64,000 nucleotides of DNA. Origin: Spirochaetales bacterium (lineage in GTDB: Bacteria; Spirochaetota; Spirochaetia; JABEVK01). The position numbers and the translations under genes were made by a program. The notes below the pieces were generated by a model. The model saw nothing but the letters and a program-made list of their open reading frames with translations. It was not told the origin of the DNA and made no database searches. The stretch covers positions 1 to 64,000 of the forward strand of contig CANJXC010000016.1 in the NCBI GenBank assembly GCA_947478845.1. Reading direction: 5' to 3'. Within the stretch, counting starts at the first letter, position 1, and every line of letters starts with the position of its first letter. Shown in pieces: positions 1-9,091 of this stretch.

Positions 1-86
1 GCCACCTCGCTGACAGGCCTCCCTTTCTCAGTGACCTGCTTGATCGCCTCGTCCTTGAACTCGGCCGTGAACTTCGATACGCCCAT
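1..86 (-). CDS. IS3-family transposase OrfA, N-terminal part
   Basis: The frame starts with ATG at 86 and reads MGVSKFTAEFKDEAIKQV, then a segment ending GRPVSEVA, before running off the window. This is the standard opening of the helix-turn-helix OrfA protein of IS3-family elements (IS911/IS150 type), which binds the terminal repeats. Only 28 residues are visible. In this family the active transposase is normally made by frameshifting between OrfA and OrfB; OrfB would lie outside the window. Confidence 0.8.
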   Translation of the reverse strand, partial: MGVSKFTAEFKDEAIKQVTEKGRPVSEV

Positions 87-148
87 GGGCTCCCCTTTTG
101 CCTAGACTTCTGAGTGTATCAGGTGTCTAGGAATTTGGGGGAAGTCCA
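1..148 (-). mobile_element. Left end of an IS3-family insertion sequence
   Basis: Reading leftward from 148, the sequence begins TGGACTTCCCCCAAATT, which has the form of an IS3-family terminal inverted repeat. It runs into the start of an OrfA-type reading frame at 86. Only this end lies in the window, so element length, the second ORF and target duplication cannot be seen. Its edge lies about 220 bases upstream of the defence operon. Confidence 0.8.
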
Positions 149-158
149 AGTTTGCTAC

Positions 159-372: not shown

Positions 373-2556
373 GTGACTCTGGGTCAACCTCTTGACGGTA
401 AACTGGACCACTTGGGCAAGCAAGATCATGTTTCAGCCTGCCTAGCCGTACTTCAGCTAAGTCAAGAGTACAGGAACCAGGCAGAAAACGTAGTCCAAGA
501 GTTCTACATGCCTTGTCTAGATGTTGCATCCGTGTACTGCAGGGCAGTCGGCTTCTTCTCGTCTTCCGCTCTTGTAGAGCTCTCGAAGGGACTAGGGCCC
601 TTTGCGAAAAATGGCGGCAAGATCAAACTTGCAGTCTCTCCGCGACTATCCCGGGAAGACTTTGAACAAATCAGACTTGGTTACGCTGAGCGGAGAAAGC
701 TGGTCCTTAAAAGGGTCATTGATTCTTTGTTACCACCACAAGGTGAAGAAGAAGCGGTTCGCCTAAGTCATTTAGCCCATCTCATTGCCCGCCGAGTTCT
801 GGACATAAGAGTCGTATTTCTTTCTCGAGGCGATGGAATTGGCATGTACCATGAAAAAATCGGCTACTTTCAAGATTTGTGTGGGCACATCGTCGCATTT
901 TCCGGATCGATGAATGAATCCCACAACGCATTCTTTGAGAATTACGAAAGTCTTGACGTCTTTGCAAGCTGGACTCAAGACGAAAGTCGTGCGAACGGCA
1001 AACGTGAAGTGTTTGATCGAATTTGGGAAGGTGAAGAGGCTGGACTCACTGTAGTAAGCGGAGAAGAACTCGAAGAAAAGATCGTGGAACTCTATCAGAA
1101 CGGCGATTTTGACCCTGATTTCGAAGCAAACCTTCGCTCCAAGCTACAACTTCGCCCCGATCCCGTGGAAGACACCCTATATGACTATCAGCAGTTCGCA
1201 GTGAGTGCTTGGATAGCCGCTGGTTTTCGTGGTGTTTTTGAGATGGCAACGGGAGCCGGCAAGACCATAACGGCTATCAAAGGAGTTCTAGAGCTACTTA
1301 CTAGATTTCCAAGAACTCTTGTTATCGTTGCGTGTCCATTTCAAAATCTTGCAGATCAGTGGTCGGATGAGTTTCGCGTCAGGGGTATGGACTCGATTGT
1401 ATGCCATAGTGCTTCAAATGAGCCGAGCTGGCCATCACGACTCTCGAGGCATGTAACTCAACTCAACTACTCGAGTGGTGTGCCCCCCCAAAAGGTAGTT
1501 ATAACAACAATTGCGACATTTCGGTCTGATGAGTTTCAAACTCAAGCTGGAAGGCAAAAGAACGAGTCACTGCTTGTTTGCGATGAGGTTCACAATTTCG
1601 GAACTGATTCGCTCCGCGAGGTTCTTAAGGACGCCTATTCGTTTCGCTTGGGACTGTCGGCGTCTTTTGCCCGACACAAAGATCCAGAAGGTACAGACTC
1701 AATTAGGACGTTTTTTGGAGCGAGCTGCGTAACCTACACACTTGAAGACGCTCTTCGTGATGGTAGGCTCTGCCCATTTGAGTACAACCCGATCGAGGTT
1801 GTTCTCGACGAAGATGAGCAAGCTAGGTACACTGAACTCAGCGATAAAATTGAGAACCGACTGCGGTCCGTAGATCCGAAAGCAAGGCGTTCGGACCGCA
1901 TCCTACAACTGCTGTATCAAGAATGTGACGAAATTGCCACTGTGGCGAAAGGCAAGCTGGAAGCATTGAGTGGACTGCTATCGGGTAATACCATGCAATC
2001 TCACGTCCTTGTGTACTGTGGGTCCGGAAGACTCATGCATGCCGAACATGAGTCTTCTCCCAATCTACTACCGAGGCAAATTGACGCAGTCACGAAGTTG
2101 CTGGGCGATGGGCTTCAAATGAGGGTTGGCAGGTATACTTCGAACGAAAGTTCAGGCGAACGAAAGAAACTACTTGATGCTTTCTCGAAAGGTACACAAA
2201 TCCAGGTGCTCGCCGCAATCCGCTGTCTCGATGAAGGGATCAACGTTCCCGCAATCAAGACTGCCTTCCTAATGTCAAGCTCGCGAAATCCAAAAGAGTT
2301 CATCCAACGTCGAGGTAGGTTACTTCGACATGCGCCAAACAAGAAATTGGCGCGGATCTACGACTTCGTAGTTATGCCAATGGGCTATAGCCCGTTAGTT
2401 GATGGACAGAGGAACGCCCTATACGACCGCCTAGTCTTCGGTGAATTGGCCAGAATTAGGGAATACTCATCTGGATCACAGAATGAGGTTACGTCGCACC
2501 GTGTTGTACGAGATATTGAACGTCGATTTGGTCCGTTTGTGGACTTCGTTGAGTAA
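373..2556 (+). CDS. PLD-like nuclease / SF2 (DEAD/DEAH) helicase
   Basis: A 727-aa protein that probably cuts or remodels foreign DNA. The N-terminal ~230 residues look like a phospholipase D-type nuclease domain, with an HxK...D cluster (HEKIGYFQD) and the GSMNES element expected after it. A superfamily 2 helicase follows: Walker A ATGAGKT near residue 292, DEVH near 395, LGLSAS, and arginine-finger motif QRRGRLLR near 640. This architecture is common among phosphorothioation-linked restriction proteins; that role here is inference. The start is GTG with no strong ribosome site, so the start is uncertain. The next gene follows 14 bases downstream behind a strong GAGGAGGT. Confidence 0.85.
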   Translation: MTLGQPLDGKLDHLGKQDHVSACLAVLQLSQEYRNQAENVVQEFYMPCLDVASVYCRAVGFFSSSALVELSKGLGPFAKNGGKIKLAVSPRLSREDFEQIRLGYAERRKLVLKRVIDSLLPPQGEEEAVRLSHLAHLIARRVLDIRVVFLSRGDGIGMYHEKIGYFQDLCGHIVAFSGSMNESHNAFFENYESLDVFASWTQDESRANGKREVFDRIWEGEEAGLTVVSGEELEEKIVELYQNGDFDPDFEANLRSKLQLRPDPVEDTLYDYQQFAVSAWIAAGFRGVFEMATGAGKTITAIKGVLELLTRFPRTLVIVACPFQNLADQWSDEFRVRGMDSIVCHSASNEPSWPSRLSRHVTQLNYSSGVPPQKVVITTIATFRSDEFQTQAGRQKNESLLVCDEVHNFGTDSLREVLKDAYSFRLGLSASFARHKDPEGTDSIRTFFGASCVTYTLEDALRDGRLCPFEYNPIEVVLDEDEQARYTELSDKIENRLRSVDPKARRSDRILQLLYQECDEIATVAKGKLEALSGLLSGNTMQSHVLVYCGSGRLMHAEHESSPNLLPRQIDAVTKLLGDGLQMRVGRYTSNESSGERKKLLDAFSKGTQIQVLAAIRCLDEGINVPAIKTAFLMSSSRNPKEFIQRRGRLLRHAPNKKLARIYDFVVMPMGYSPLVDGQRNALYDRLVFGELARIREYSSGSQNEVTSHRVVRDIERRFGPFVDFVE

Positions 2557-2570
2557 GAGGAGGTGGCGAA

Positions 2571-2738
2571 TTGGAAGAAATGAACTCAGAACTCGTACAC
2601 GCGGTTGATGATCGGGTTGTAGAAAGACTGGTCACGCAGATTCTTCGGCTCGAAATACAGAACTGTCGGACGAACTCCTTTAGCAATCCCGAGATGGTAA
2701 GCAAGATTCAGAAGTGCTTCGAGGCAGAAGTCAATTGA
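2571..2738 (+). CDS. Small 55-aa defence-operon protein
   Basis: A short, unrecognised gene between the helicase and the ATPase. It starts with TTG at 2571, six bases after a near-perfect Shine-Dalgarno GAGGAGGT (2557-2564); an in-frame ATG at 2580 is a second choice but too far from that site. The product looks helical and acidic, with no membrane segment (for example VVERLVTQILRLEIQ). Its stop overlaps the TTG start of the ATPase (TTGA, 2735-2738). The strong ribosome site and coupling argue that it is a real component, perhaps a small subunit or regulator. Confidence 0.65.
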   Translation: MEEMNSELVHAVDDRVVERLVTQILRLEIQNCRTNSFSNPEMVSKIQKCFEAEVN

Positions 2739-3613
2739 AAATTATACATCTTAAGTTGCAAAACTTCCGCCAGTTCGTTGGTACTCATTTCGTCAAGTTC
2801 TCAACAGATACGGAAAGGAATGTCACAGTGGTGCTGGGAGACAATGGAACAGGGAAGACCACGTTGGCCCAAGCATTTAGATGGTGCCTCTATGGAAAGA
2901 CCGAGTTTGCGGATGAATCTTTGGTCAACAAGGATGCACTTGCAACCAGCAAACGCGGGCAGGGGCTTGACGTTAGCGTTGAGCTTGAAATTATACACAG
3001 AGGGACCACTTATGTGATCGAACGAGCCCTTATGTGTACTGTCGAGAAGCAAGGTCTACTTGGAAGGGACGTTGTCAAAGACTTCTCAATCACGTTTAAA
3101 GATGATCTTGGAAAGAGCCGACCCATTCCTGAGCTTGAACTCGAGGCCAAGATCCAAGAGTTGCTTCCGGCGTCGATGTCCAGGTACTTCCTGTTCGATG
3201 GAGAGCGAATCCACAGCCTGAGCAAGCAGATTCAAGTCGGTCGCAAGAGCAAGGAGTTTGCGGAGGCAGTTCGTGGTCTACTTGGTCTCGATCCACTAGT
3301 GAATGCGCTTCAGCATCTAGATGGCTCCAAGAATACCACTAGCGTAAGGAAGAACTTCGACAAGCAGTACGATGCCAGTCACAATAGTCGGATCGAGGAG
3401 CTTGCACTCGAAATCAGGCACCATGAAGAGGAGCTAGATAAAGTTGGGCAGGAAGTATCCGAACAACGCGAGGTCATTTCCGAACTTGAGAACGAGATTC
3501 GAAAGGAGGAATTGAACCTTGGGCGATTCGAGGAAGCAGCGCGCCTGCAGAGACAGCGCAAAGAAACTATGCAAAGAAAAGATGGATACTCGAAAGAACT
3601 TAGCTTGAATTGA
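2735..3613 (+). CDS. DndD-like SMC/ABC ATPase, N-terminal part
   Basis: This is the N-terminal half of an SMC-like ATPase of the DndD type, opening MKIIHLKLQNFRQF. It carries Walker A (GDNGTGKTT, about residues 36-44) and the YFLFDGERI motif typical of DndD-like proteins (about residue 148), then a charged coiled coil. The TTG at 2735 overlaps the stop of the small upstream gene. The frame stops at 3611-3613 inside the coiled coil, while the Walker B half continues in the -1 frame from about 3604. One protein broken by a frameshift, programmed frameshifting, or two coupled polypeptides are all possible. DndD family proteins are normally about 650 aa in one chain. Confidence 0.8.
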   Translation: MKIIHLKLQNFRQFVGTHFVKFSTDTERNVTVVLGDNGTGKTTLAQAFRWCLYGKTEFADESLVNKDALATSKRGQGLDVSVELEIIHRGTTYVIERALMCTVEKQGLLGRDVVKDFSITFKDDLGKSRPIPELELEAKIQELLPASMSRYFLFDGERIHSLSKQIQVGRKSKEFAEAVRGLLGLDPLVNALQHLDGSKNTTSVRKNFDKQYDASHNSRIEELALEIRHHEEELDKVGQEVSEQREVISELENEIRKEELNLGRFEEAARLQRQRKETMQRKDGYSKELSLN

Positions 3614-4746
3614 AGGCGATTCCGAGAAATGTTAGTGAATCTAGCCTTGGGTACTTTGCGAAGAACTTGGTAGGGCGAGCTGTTCAAATGTTCGGTGAAC
3701 TTGGCGACTTCGACCGTGGTATTCCTGATATTCATGCGAGGACTCTCGATTTTCTTCTGAGCCAGAAGAAATGCCTCTGCGGTAACGATTTATTGGAAGG
3801 TGAGCAGCACTTTGAGGCCATACGAGCACTTAAGAAGTTCGTACCCCCAGAGAGCCTCGGGACTTCCATTAATCACTTCCTAAAGATAGCAGAGTCAAAC
3901 CTCAGGACAGGTGAGGCGTTCCGGACTAACTTCAATGAAACTATTGTTCGTATTGGTACTCTTCGAGAAAAGATTTCAAAAGAAGAGAGTGAGCTCGAGT
4001 TAATAGACCAGATGTTGGCCGGTCGAGATGATGTTGCCCACACCCAGAGGCACTTGACCGAGTGTCGGACTGACCTAAAGCGGGTTCGGGAAGAGAATGA
4101 AAGAACTCTAGTTCGAAAAGGGCAATCCGAGAGCGCGTTTAAGAGGGCACGCGAAGAGCGGGCGGCAATAAGCAAGGGAAATGAGCAGAACCGTAAGATC
4201 GAGGCTAGGCAACTATACTTGAAACAATGTTACAAGATTCTCTCAGATGTTTACTCGGAGAGGGAGTCAGAGACTCGAAAGTCGCTCGAAGATGAAATCA
4301 ACAGTGTCTTTCGTAAGATATTTCAAGTAAACCTTTCGATTGAAATTGACGAGAACTACGGTATTTCGGTCGTTATCGGGGATGAACGACTTTCTGAGCG
4401 TGGCGTCGAGACTTCGACTGCGCAGAGCGGGTCGGTGATACTTGCGTTCATTGCAGGTATCATTGCCCTGGCAAGGCGAAAGAGCGTTGAAGACAGTGAA
4501 CCCGGTCTTTCCCTTGTAGGCGAACCATATCCACTGATCATGGACGCACCTCTGTCAGCCTTCGATTCTTTGAGAATCGAAGCGTTCGCAACGGTCCTGC
4601 CTAGTGTAGCAGAGCAGGTGATACTTTTTATCAAGGATGTGGATGGAGCTATTGCCGTTTCCCACATGAAAAACAAAGTCGGTTTGAGCTATCGCCTTAG
4701 GGGGCTGAGTGCCTTCTCAACAACAGTAGAGGTACAGAATGTTTGA
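3610..4746 (+). CDS. DndD-like SMC/ABC ATPase, C-terminal part
   Basis: The C-terminal half of the ATPase, 378 aa if it starts at TTG 3610 (overlapping TTGA with the previous stop). It has a CLCG zinc-hook-like element near residue 56, a second coiled-coil arm, a STAQSGS stretch where the ABC signature belongs, and a Walker B / D-loop region (LIMDAPLSAFDSLR, near residue 315). Without the N-terminal half it cannot bind ATP in the usual way. The frame is open from 3604, just after a TAG at 3601, so the two frames overlap over only 10 bases. No strong ribosome site precedes 3610. The next gene overlaps its end by 8 bases. Confidence 0.8.
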   Translation: MKAIPRNVSESSLGYFAKNLVGRAVQMFGELGDFDRGIPDIHARTLDFLLSQKKCLCGNDLLEGEQHFEAIRALKKFVPPESLGTSINHFLKIAESNLRTGEAFRTNFNETIVRIGTLREKISKEESELELIDQMLAGRDDVAHTQRHLTECRTDLKRVREENERTLVRKGQSESAFKRAREERAAISKGNEQNRKIEARQLYLKQCYKILSDVYSERESETRKSLEDEINSVFRKIFQVNLSIEIDENYGISVVIGDERLSERGVETSTAQSGSVILAFIAGIIALARRKSVEDSEPGLSLVGEPYPLIMDAPLSAFDSLRIEAFATVLPSVAEQVILFIKDVDGAIAVSHMKNKVGLSYRLRGLSAFSTTVEVQNV

Positions 4747-5263
4747 CAATGACTACGTATTGCGGGGCCGTCACGCCGAGTTCGCGGATAAGCTCGTTTC
4801 CGAGTCGACCAAAGGGGTTGCCGTCTTCAAACGACTCGTTGACTTGCTCTACATCGCTCCAATTGTTGGTCTGCTTTTTGATCGTGATGCGGTAGTCGAG
4901 AGTGGCACTGAAAAGCGGATCTTTGCTGCAGTGCTGAACAAGGAGTCGGAAAGTCTGCTCTTTGCATTCAGGCTAGTGCTTCTCCTCGATCAGAAGCTTG
5001 GGCTTGATGACCAGGATCGCACCCGGCAGGCCTTCAGCTACTCCCTGAGTACGGAAGGTTTGCTTTCTGCTCGCATCGAGTCTCGAGTTCGTGGTGGCAT
5101 AGAAGTACTGCACGAACACTTGTGTGAGGGTGACGCAAGGAAACGCGACCTCTTGGATAATCTCGTTCAGTATCTTGAGGTTGTAGATATCACTTCGCCA
5201 ACGTCCACTGTGGAGGATCTACTTGCTGAATGTCGAAAAGTTTCTCGCGCTCCGTCAATGTAG
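4739..5263 (+). CDS. Unknown 174-aa defence-operon protein
   Basis: Last gene of the operon, starting ATG at 4739 inside the end of the ATPase frame. The protein is mostly helical, with a hydrophobic segment near residues 30-50 (LLYIAPIVGLLFDRDAV) that looks like a buried helix rather than a membrane span, and a VRGGIEVLHEHL segment near residue 115. It does not resemble DndE as I know it. Similar small proteins accompany DndD-like ATPases, so a structural or DNA-binding partner is plausible, but no function can be assigned. A palindrome GTTTGG-GCC-CCAAAC follows at 5263-5277 and may help end transcription. Confidence 0.65.
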   Translation: MFDNDYVLRGRHAEFADKLVSESTKGVAVFKRLVDLLYIAPIVGLLFDRDAVVESGTEKRIFAAVLNKESESLLFAFRLVLLLDQKLGLDDQDRTRQAFSYSLSTEGLLSARIESRVRGGIEVLHEHLCEGDARKRDLLDNLVQYLEVVDITSPTSTVEDLLAECRKVSRAPSM

Positions 5264-5393: not shown

Positions 5394-7181
5394 TTATCGA
5401 CTATGATCATAGAACTCCACCTTTTGGTTGCTCAGATTCACCTTGGTTCGAAGACAGGTCCTCTTTTCTTCGATGGGTTCGTGATAGACCAGAAACGTGA
5501 CCTTACTCGACGCTTTATGAATCTTGATTTCGTGAGCCTGAGATCTGTCGCCAAAGAAAAGTTCGCCAGTCTCGACGTAGATTCGGAGGACCGGTTCAAG
5601 TTTACTGACTTCGCTAGGAGTTACATGGAGCGCCTGTTCGTCCAGCCTGCCTACGGGTGACTTGTTACAGAGTTCAGTGATCACCTGGGGTTTGCCAATT
5701 TGAAACAGGTTATTCTTTGCGGTGTTCCATGCAAGTTCAAAACTCGGAAATGTTGCCTGAATGTCCCTCTGAATGTCCGTTGGTAGCTTCTTGAGTGGTA
5801 GCCGCTTTTGAAAGTGCCTGAGGGCAAGGAACACGATCACGTCCTCCCGCTTTCGCGCGTTGGCATTCTGGAACGCTTCTGCCCCGAAATGCTCCACCAA
5901 CCAAGTTTGGAGCCGCTTCTGTGCTCCAGTCTGGTTCAATAACGAACCCAATTCGGGAAACTCTTCCGGTACTGGGAACCTCCCAAGTTCCATCGTGAGG
6001 TTCCAATAGCGTTCAATGGTAGCCTCATGTTCGGCGAAGAACTTGTCGCGTTTAAGTTGGGCACGTTCCTCGGCCGACCAAGTCGCGCGGATTCCCCAAT
6101 CGGTCCAGACCGTTGGCCGCCGATTCTTTGTCAGAAAGAAGGCTTCAGCTTCCTCTGGTCGACGGAACACGAAGAAGATTCCTGGACCGATAGCGGCTGT
6201 CGGATGCTCCAACACGTCTTCGAGAAGCTGAACCAGCTCGGCCTGTTGGAAGTACTTCTGAAAAGTGTTTCGGGACGTGAGAAATCCGTCCTTGTATGGC
6301 TTGAGGGTGACGGCTGTCTGTTGGTTCTCAATGAGTGTGCTCACACACAGGATTGAACGTGTTAACCCGAAGGCACTCTTCAGTACCTCGATCCGTTCGG
6401 CCGCGTCCTCGATGACATTGAGAACAAACCCAAGGTTGACTACGTCGGCTGGTTTCTTGGTTTCTTTCGGGCGGTGAACAGGGTCCCAACCTGAAACCGA
6501 AAACCCCGCAGCTCCGAGATAGTCAAGATCGTCGCCTTTGCCACAGCCGTAGTCGAAAAACGTCTTTTCAGCCGTAAGGACACCTGCCGAGAGGAGAGCC
6601 TGAACAGGCTTTGACGCTGATGTTCGCGAGATAGCCGTCTTGTGACGATCCACTTTGACATCGGGCTCTGCAACGGGTTCTTGTGGTTTAAGGCCCTTCT
6701 GCCTCAAAAGTTCGTGCCAGTTTCTGAGAAACCCAATCGTCTTGGTCTCCTCATAGAGGCCAAGAGCTTCCTCTTGCTTCGTCAACTCGGCCCATTCCGG
6801 CGCCTTCGGGTGGTCAGGGGCAACAAGTAACTCTTTTCGGTGGAGAATAGGAGGATTGTGTTCTACCTCGTACTTAACCAGTCGCGATCGACCGTTTGCC
6901 AGGTGGCAAGTGAGCGCCGCTGCCAAGATTGGGTGCTGACTCAGTTCAAAGTCGAGGTATTCCAAGAAGCTGACCGTTCCGGCAGACTTTGAGGCCTTGA
7001 GGCAGTTCCAGTTCGGAAGCTTCTGAGCGGCTACTTCGAGCAGAAACAATGGAAGGGTAATGTCAGTTGTGGTGAGGCTACGATGCACGTAGATTGCACC
7101 TCCCACACGCTTCCCAACCAAAAGCTTGTCCACTTGAACAAAGAAGTCGGCATCAACACCCATTCCTTCCAGTTTGATCAT
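5394..7181 (-). CDS. Dnd-associated putative DNA methyltransferase
   Basis: A 595-aa protein convergent with the operon. Residues ~200-310 form a SAM-dependent methyltransferase-like domain: the glycine loop DYGCGKGDDLDYL, then GWDP, then NLGFVLNVIED and ERIEVLKSAF. The preceding VDRHKTAISR and this whole arrangement match the phosphorothioation-associated putative methyltransferase family. The N- and C-terminal regions (~190 and ~280 residues) have no domain I can name. The frame stays open upstream of 7181 but has no usable start codon there, so ATG 7181 is the first choice even though no ribosome site is visible. The target base is unknown. Confidence 0.8.
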   Translation of the reverse strand: MIKLEGMGVDADFFVQVDKLLVGKRVGGAIYVHRSLTTTDITLPLFLLEVAAQKLPNWNCLKASKSAGTVSFLEYLDFELSQHPILAAALTCHLANGRSRLVKYEVEHNPPILHRKELLVAPDHPKAPEWAELTKQEEALGLYEETKTIGFLRNWHELLRQKGLKPQEPVAEPDVKVDRHKTAISRTSASKPVQALLSAGVLTAEKTFFDYGCGKGDDLDYLGAAGFSVSGWDPVHRPKETKKPADVVNLGFVLNVIEDAAERIEVLKSAFGLTRSILCVSTLIENQQTAVTLKPYKDGFLTSRNTFQKYFQQAELVQLLEDVLEHPTAAIGPGIFFVFRRPEEAEAFFLTKNRRPTVWTDWGIRATWSAEERAQLKRDKFFAEHEATIERYWNLTMELGRFPVPEEFPELGSLLNQTGAQKRLQTWLVEHFGAEAFQNANARKREDVIVFLALRHFQKRLPLKKLPTDIQRDIQATFPSFELAWNTAKNNLFQIGKPQVITELCNKSPVGRLDEQALHVTPSEVSKLEPVLRIYVETGELFFGDRSQAHEIKIHKASSKVTFLVYHEPIEEKRTCLRTKVNLSNQKVEFYDHSR

Positions 7182-7871: not shown

Positions 7872-8411
7872 ATGACCCAAGCGCTCAAGCTCTTCGCTAC
7901 CTACAACAGTGCCACCAACGAGCAGGTTGCCACCCTGCTCTCCCAACTAGGCCCCGCGGCATACACGCAGGAGCGCAACACACACTTCAAAAGCCTTCAT
8001 GCCTTGCACTTTCACTTGCTGACATCTACCCGTTTCCTGCAGTGCCTCGTTAGGACGAACTCAGAGAATAAGTACCTCGTTAGTCCTCTGACGGAAGAGT
8101 CCTACGAGTTGAAAACAGAAACCTCTGAGGAAGTTTGTCTCCTACAAGCGCAATACGACAAGAACTTCCTCGCCTTCACCGAAGCCCTCGATGAGAAGGA
8201 TGTCACCCGCCTAAAGACCAAAATGGTGATCAACAGAAGGACTTTCCTTATGTCGCTATCGGACATCCTCACTCAGTACATCGTCCACACCGTCCACCAC
8301 CGGGGCCAGTTCTCACAGCTTCTCGACGAAATGGGAATTGAGCACGACATCGGAGGGGTATGGGTGTTCACCGAAGAACTCCAGACTGAAGGCAGGTCTT
8401 ACGCAGGATGA
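7872..8411 (+). CDS. DinB-family protein with altered C-terminus
   Basis: A 179-aa four-helix-bundle protein of the DinB/YfiT superfamily, which are usually metal-binding thiol-dependent enzymes. The signature HTVHHRGQ lies near residue 139, and a further metal-ligand candidate is the HALHFHLL segment near residue 38. AGGAGG precedes the ATG. The last ~10 residues ([10 protein letters not shown]) are read out of frame from a helix-turn-helix gene fragment that begins near 8383. The original end of the DinB gene has therefore probably been replaced by a recombination event. The bundle itself looks complete, so activity may be kept. Confidence 0.75.
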
Positions 8412-8544
8412 GTTTGCCAGTCGGATCAAGACCAAGAAGTCTAACATCTCAAGAATCGAGAATCACGCCCAGGACATCAAGCTCTCGACCCTAGAGAAGT
8501 TCGCAGCTGCGGTGGGCAAGCGGGTAAAGATCAAGATCGTTTAG
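8383..8544 (+). pseudogene. Truncated XRE-type helix-turn-helix regulator or antitoxin
   Basis: In the frame ending at 8544 the sequence encodes [15 protein letters not shown], then [18 protein letters not shown] and a short tail. This is the recognition half of an XRE/HigA-type helix-turn-helix domain. The first helix and the start are missing and replaced by the DinB coding region. It resembles the antitoxin of a HigBA-type pair, and a RelE-like toxin lies just downstream on the other strand but has its own Phd antitoxin. Translation of this fragment is unlikely. Confidence 0.65.
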
Positions 8545-8559
8545 GCGAAAGTGCCAACC

Positions 8560-8841
8560 TTACTTCTTGCTGTAGATGTTCTGATGGTTGCCGACATTCA
8601 CGAGAATGACTTCCTTTTCAGCAATGAGGAACTCGATGGAAATGCGGTAGGAGAGGTTGATGGAAACCGAGTAGCCCTCGAAGCGGCTTGTCTTGAAGGG
8701 GTGCAGGCGGAGGGACGGGTGATGAGGATTAAGTTCGAGGAGGGTAAGGCACTTCGAGTACTGATTCTTAACCTCGGGATGCTTGTTCAGAAAGCGTCGG
8801 GCCTTTTCTTCGTAAGATTCCGAGAAGATCAGTTTATACAT
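8560..8841 (-). CDS. RelE/ParE-superfamily toxin (YafQ-like)
   Basis: A 93-aa basic protein reading MYKLIFSESYEEKARRF with LSYRISIEFLI and a terminal segment VILVNVGNHQNIY, the usual fold order of RelE/ParE/YafQ mRNA interferases. In such toxins an internal arginine and a C-terminal histidine act in RNA cleavage; YRISIEF and GNHQNIY are the candidates here. It overlaps the upstream antitoxin by eight bases, the normal type II toxin-antitoxin layout. Whether it cleaves mRNA is inferred from family only. Confidence 0.8.
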   Translation of the reverse strand: MYKLIFSESYEEKARRFLNKHPEVKNQYSKCLTLLELNPHHPSLRLHPFKTSRFEGYSVSINLSYRISIEFLIAEKEVILVNVGNHQNIYSKK

Positions 8842-9091
8842 CGGTGATCCGCTTCATGTGATCTTCGACTGAGCCGGAGTGAAACCGTCCCTCCGCGATA
8901 TTCTTTCGGGATTCCTGAATCGCCGCGTCCAACTCCAGTTCCCTGAGCTGGTTGTACTCGTCCATCGAAAGCACAACATATTTTTCTTTCCCACGTACCG
9001 TGATGATGACCCCGTCGTTGCCGGGAACAAGTTCATCAATCGCGGTGATGCCCTTGGTCTTCAGTTCATTGGCGGTGATTTGCGCAATCAT
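8834..9091 (-). CDS. Phd/YefM-family antitoxin
   Basis: An 85-aa protein with the Phd/YefM fold order: MIAQITANELKTKGITAI, then GVIITVRGKEKYVVLSMDEYNQL and an acidic C-terminal arm that would wrap the toxin. The antitoxin gene comes first in the operon, as is usual, behind a GGAGGG ribosome site. Phd proteins bind their own promoter, so autoregulation at 9092-9130 is expected, although I see no clear palindrome there. Confidence 0.85.
   Translation of the reverse strand: MIAQITANELKTKGITAIDELVPGNDGVIITVRGKEKYVVLSMDEYNQLRELELDAAIQESRKNIAEGRFHSGSVEDHMKRITDV

Follow-up and report, generated by a model that had tools for sequence, protein, structure and literature searches.

Judging from its gene sequences, the four-gene block at the left end of the window (the whole stretch of 64,000 nucleotides analysed here, from a Spirochaetales bacterium) is pbeABCD, a named antiviral module that depends on phosphorothioate (PT). 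We consider it probable that the block is the effector half of a decayed SspABCD-PbeABCD system, which was once paired with an SspABCD-type PT module and is now probably inactive. The assembly comprises 22 contigs (2.99 Mb; completeness rating 99.75%), and position 1 of the window is the left end of contig C16.

A first-pass annotation of this DNA had described, at 373-5263, a Dnd-like defence operon of "four or five" genes with a PLD-helicase, a 55-aa protein, a DndD-like ATPase and a 174-aa protein, which faces a Dnd-associated methyltransferase, is AT-richer than its surroundings and has no modification genes within the window. Most of this description held. The open reading frames lie where they had been placed, the methyltransferase is confirmed on the opposite strand, the modification genes are indeed missing from the window, and the GC content of the block is 0.48-0.51 against mostly 0.53-0.61 in the remainder of the window. 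The implied novelty of the block did not hold, as the whole of it matches the named and characterised PbeABCD; the matches of its proteins to the PADLOC models of PbeA and PbeC, with scores well outside what chance would give, rule out a novel unnamed system. To the right of the block, an HTH protein, a Phd/YefM-type antitoxin and a small adjoining open reading frame (8338-9091) form a toxin-antitoxin-like group.

Table 1. Features at the left end of the window (positions are those of the window).
Feature	Positions	Strand	Description
IS3-family-like element, right end	1..149	-	orfA N-terminal end and terminal repeat; also left end of C16
pbeA	373..2556	+	727 aa; PLD (HKD-type) nuclease domain fused to SF2 helicase; PADLOC PbeA 4e-201
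pbeB	2571..2738	+	55 aa; slot between pbeA and pbeC
pbeC	2735..4746	+	CxC-type DndD-like ABC ATPase; single gene, frameshift ~3604-3610
pbeD	4739..5263	+	174 aa; same slot as pbeD of L002 and L071-L074
TIGR04096 PT-associated putative methyltransferase	5394..7181	-	595 aa; 1.9e-140, above curated cut-off; convergent with pbeD

The start codon of pbeA is uncertain (GTG 373 or TTG 412). Besides its PADLOC match, the 727-aa product matched TIGR04095 of NCBIfam (6.7e-132, under the curated cut-off), and Pfam gave ResIII and helicase C together with a weak PLD match, so that all three domains by which PbeA is defined were found. In an alignment of 11 homologues, residues H142, K144, G160, S161 and N163 (counted from codon 427) were invariant, as were the Walker A and DExH residues. 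A marginal DrmD score (1.4e-6) was also obtained in the PADLOC search of the block. The window's own PbeB and PbeD matched no PADLOC model and were recognised by their conserved slots, a small PbeB and a PbeD of ~150-175 aa, and by alignment with the proteins of relatives. PbeB is 42% identical over 43 aa to the same-slot protein of L047/L072, and PbeD is 27-30% identical to its counterparts in L002 and L071-L074. Among 11 aligned PbeD-slot proteins, seven matched TIGR04062 (dnd_assoc_4), while hhalign comparison of small alignments of PbeD and DndE gave no signal (probability 0.3%).

The ATPase is encoded by two open reading frames, 2714-3613 and 3610-4746, which matched PADLOC PbeC with 7.4e-58 and 2.5e-44 and cover positions 5-276 and 284-640 of the 644-position model; the first piece also gave a partial DndD match in NCBIfam. 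The TTG start of pbeC overlaps the pbeB stop. Frame 2 is closed by TGA 3611-3613 and frame 1 is open only from 3604, which amounts to a one-base (-1) shift, and the spacing relative to homologues is otherwise preserved around it. A split at this position is seen in none of the 10 homologues compared. Hence pbeC is one split gene, a five-gene block was ruled out, and the first-pass count stands at four. The motif KKCLCG aligns with the CxC of other PbeC proteins, so the defining feature of PbeC is present, albeit in a frameshifted gene. We read the break as the loss of one base or as an error of the assembly. A programmed frameshift seems unlikely, as by-eye inspection revealed no canonical slippery heptamer at 3595-3620. 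It should be further pointed out that TGA 3611-3613 overlaps TTG 3610-3612, and the two halves might conceivably still be made by coupled expression.

Homologues of the TIGR04096 methyltransferase adjoin dnd, ssp or FtsK-type PT-linked modules elsewhere, and some stand beside no recognisable one. In the window protein, model positions 319-468, from the C-terminal part, are matched by an N-terminal stretch ahead of the main match, which may reflect either a domain duplication or a permutation.

The first-pass annotation had suggested, as one of two options, that the rest of the system lies left of the insertion sequence (IS), and had proposed a search of the assembly for dndC-, dndE- or sspB-type genes. 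This search brought up sspA and a cut sspB, and no dndC. The search for DUF4007, identified as SspB by the match of a relative's protein to PDB 6juf, gave a single gene in the genome at the extreme end of contig C6, where a cysteine desulfurase (PADLOC SspA, 2.7e-102) is followed by SspB (1.3e-75); both SspA and SspB are thus represented. Only 238 codons of this sspB remain before the left end of an IS interrupts it, the same element whose right end occupies the first bases of the window, and the orientation at the C6 end is compatible with the order C6-IS-window. Moreover, the highest scores of the C6 SspB were to SspBs of same-phylum relatives in which the gene is linked to pbe (120, 107 and 89 bits, versus 82 or less for the rest).

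Six identical (100%) occurrences of the IS repeat were located, each at a contig end, and one full copy of 1240 bp lies at C4:190908-192147. No read or contig spans the junction of C6 and the window. In the assembly, the IS has five flanks on the right and four on the left, the only 3-bp target duplication found pairs C6 with C2 rather than C16 (about one case in four would show such a match by chance), and no known right IS flank encodes the remaining end of SspB. For these reasons, it is on functional grounds only that C6 and the window are likely to have once been joined. The unequal flank counts may mean that a piece of the assembly is missing, in which sspC and sspD could exist unseen. 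DinB-family paralogues were observed at both broken ends, at 7872-8411 of the window beside the block and at 7652-8200 of L095 beside the C6 ssp remnant. In a same-genus genome (G001; 71 of ~210 contigs compared, at most 20 kb of each), a C6-like DinB gene is found close to the orthologues of the 13.7-18 kb part of the window, in inverted order. Because of this inversion, and because a DinB paralogue is also present at window 7872, the synteny does not decide the question of the join. Of the two first-pass options, a missing left part is favoured by the Ssp remnant that ends at the same IS and by relatives whose Ssp genes lie upstream of pbeA, while the junction itself is unproven.

These relatives were found in five genomes of the same phylum (L071-L075). 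In L071, L073 and L074 the Ssp genes directly adjoin pbeA or almost do so, and a gap of ~2.2 kb separates them from it in L072 and L075. A Bacillota MAG (L002) carries sspB-sspC after pbeD, and the Ssp and pbe modules of a Rhizobium plasmid (L040) are convergent. The linkage of Ssp and PbeABCD thus recurs in seven loci with at least three arrangements. The A-B-C-D order and similar gene sizes were also seen in annotated plasmids of Pontibrevibacter, Haloprofundus and L. plantarum.

Pairing with a canonical dnd module, in which the TIGR04096 gene would be the last gene of a dnd operon lost right of the methyltransferase, is an unlikely alternative. On a plasmid of Arthrobacter sp. StoSoilB13 (L055, 10266-23036), an unannotated pbeABCD converges on TIGR04096-dndEDCB with dndA beyond, at a junction like that of the window, and dndCDE lie upstream of pbeABCD in Pontibrevibacter; since the Arthrobacter locus has Dnd as its partner, Dnd could be the lost partner here as well. 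Three genes of that locus, namely pbeA, pbeC and the methyltransferase gene, look split, which probably reflects sequencing errors. However, TIGR03183 (dndC) was matched nowhere in the assembly, the genome carries sspA and a cut sspB instead, and the pbe blocks of the same phylum adjoin ssp. A DndE profile search of the genome gave no match, and control genomes likewise gave none.

More doubtful still is a complete and active Ssp-Pbe system, with sspC-sspD lost only in IS assembly gaps and the split of pbeC being a sequencing error or compatible with coupled expression of the two pieces. The unequal IS flanks and the stop/start overlap in pbeC would allow it. Nevertheless, the IS interrupts sspB, whose remaining end is missing from every known right flank, the genome is rated nearly complete, and a split pbeC occurs in none of the homologues compared. 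SspC was absent from the contig ends examined. The only gene of the PAPS-reductase family (PF01507) in the assembly is CysD-like and stands beside a CysN-like gene, and SspD was accordingly not found in the assembly.

A solitary, working pbeABCD that relies on another modification, made for example by the TIGR04096 methyltransferase or by a genomic N6/N4 DNA methylase, is less probable again. Solitary PbeAC pairs are common: 320 of 553 pairs in a 2019 survey had no dnd genes nearby, and 155 of these 320 lie near methyltransferase genes. Several PF01555 (N6/N4-type methylase) matches also exist elsewhere in the genome. On the other hand, pbeC is frameshifted, PbeABCD required PT in the published test (PMC6459918), the TIGR04096 homologues accompany PT modules, and the genome gave no match to the C5 cytosine methylase family (PF00145). 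Least probable of all is the version in which the TIGR04096 methyltransferase itself marks the host DNA and PbeABCD reads a non-phosphorothioate modification; the first-pass idea of a self-standing system that recognises something else found no positive support, with pbeC frameshifted. Elsewhere in the same genome (L087, 944-15073; G000:C1:172000-188000), a 912-aa PLD-helicase, a 1071-aa methylase-like protein and a 1029-aa AAA-like protein stand together in what looks like a separate defence locus.

The decayed SspABCD-PbeABCD system is therefore our preferred reading, and its mechanism is taken over from published work. If the system were intact, the host DNA would be marked by the Ssp proteins: sulfur would be mobilised and inserted by SspA and SspD, the DNA nicked by SspB and ATP energy provided by SspC. 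Scanning of DNA would fall to PbeC and PbeD. The helicase-nuclease PbeA, together with PbeB, would target invading DNA that lacks the mark and stop its replication. In this genome, the IS breaks sspB at the end of C6, no sspC, sspD or dndC turned up, and pbeC is frameshifted. With pbeC frameshifted and the PT module broken, the locus is probably inactive.

PT-dependent antiviral activity was published for the genes of Haloterrigena jeotgali A29 by Xiong et al. (PMC6459918). PbeABCD together with DndCDEA reduced plaques of virus SNJ1 ~10,000-fold; pbeB, pbeC and pbeD were indispensable and pbeA partly so; and PT-modified virus escaped. No cleavage of viral DNA was reported in that study, whereas a 2024 reappraisal (PMC10853773), which defines PbeC as a CxC ABC ATPase, argues for cleavage by the PbeA nuclease instead. 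The published partners on the Ssp side are SspE and SspFGH. In one survey, the co-occurrence of pbeA-D with ssp or dnd genes is counted by genome, and we found no explicit description of an adjacent SspABCD-PbeABCD pairing in the open-licence papers covered here. As the 2019 survey scored pairs as solitary by the absence of dndCD, some "solitary" PbeAC may have an Ssp partner. The present locus by itself adds little, being a known and probably decaying system, and the Ssp-Pbe pairing in seven loci is the only mildly new point.

Compared with known systems, DndFGH and DISARM resemble the block in their defence role and in PLD or helicase parts, but neither is the best match of any of its genes. 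SspABCD is represented in this genome by sspA and the 5' part of sspB on C6, and in relatives by the Ssp genes upstream of pbeA; it differs in that its published partners do not include Pbe and that sspC and sspD were not found here. DndCDEA-PbeABCD has the same effector module, while this genome lacks dndC. The closest system is PbeABCD itself. Although the block differs from it in the frameshifted pbeC, in having no adjoining dndCDEA and in the TIGR04096 methyltransferase that converges on pbeD, the two are alike in all four genes, in gene order and sizes, in the PLD-helicase and in the CxC ATPase.
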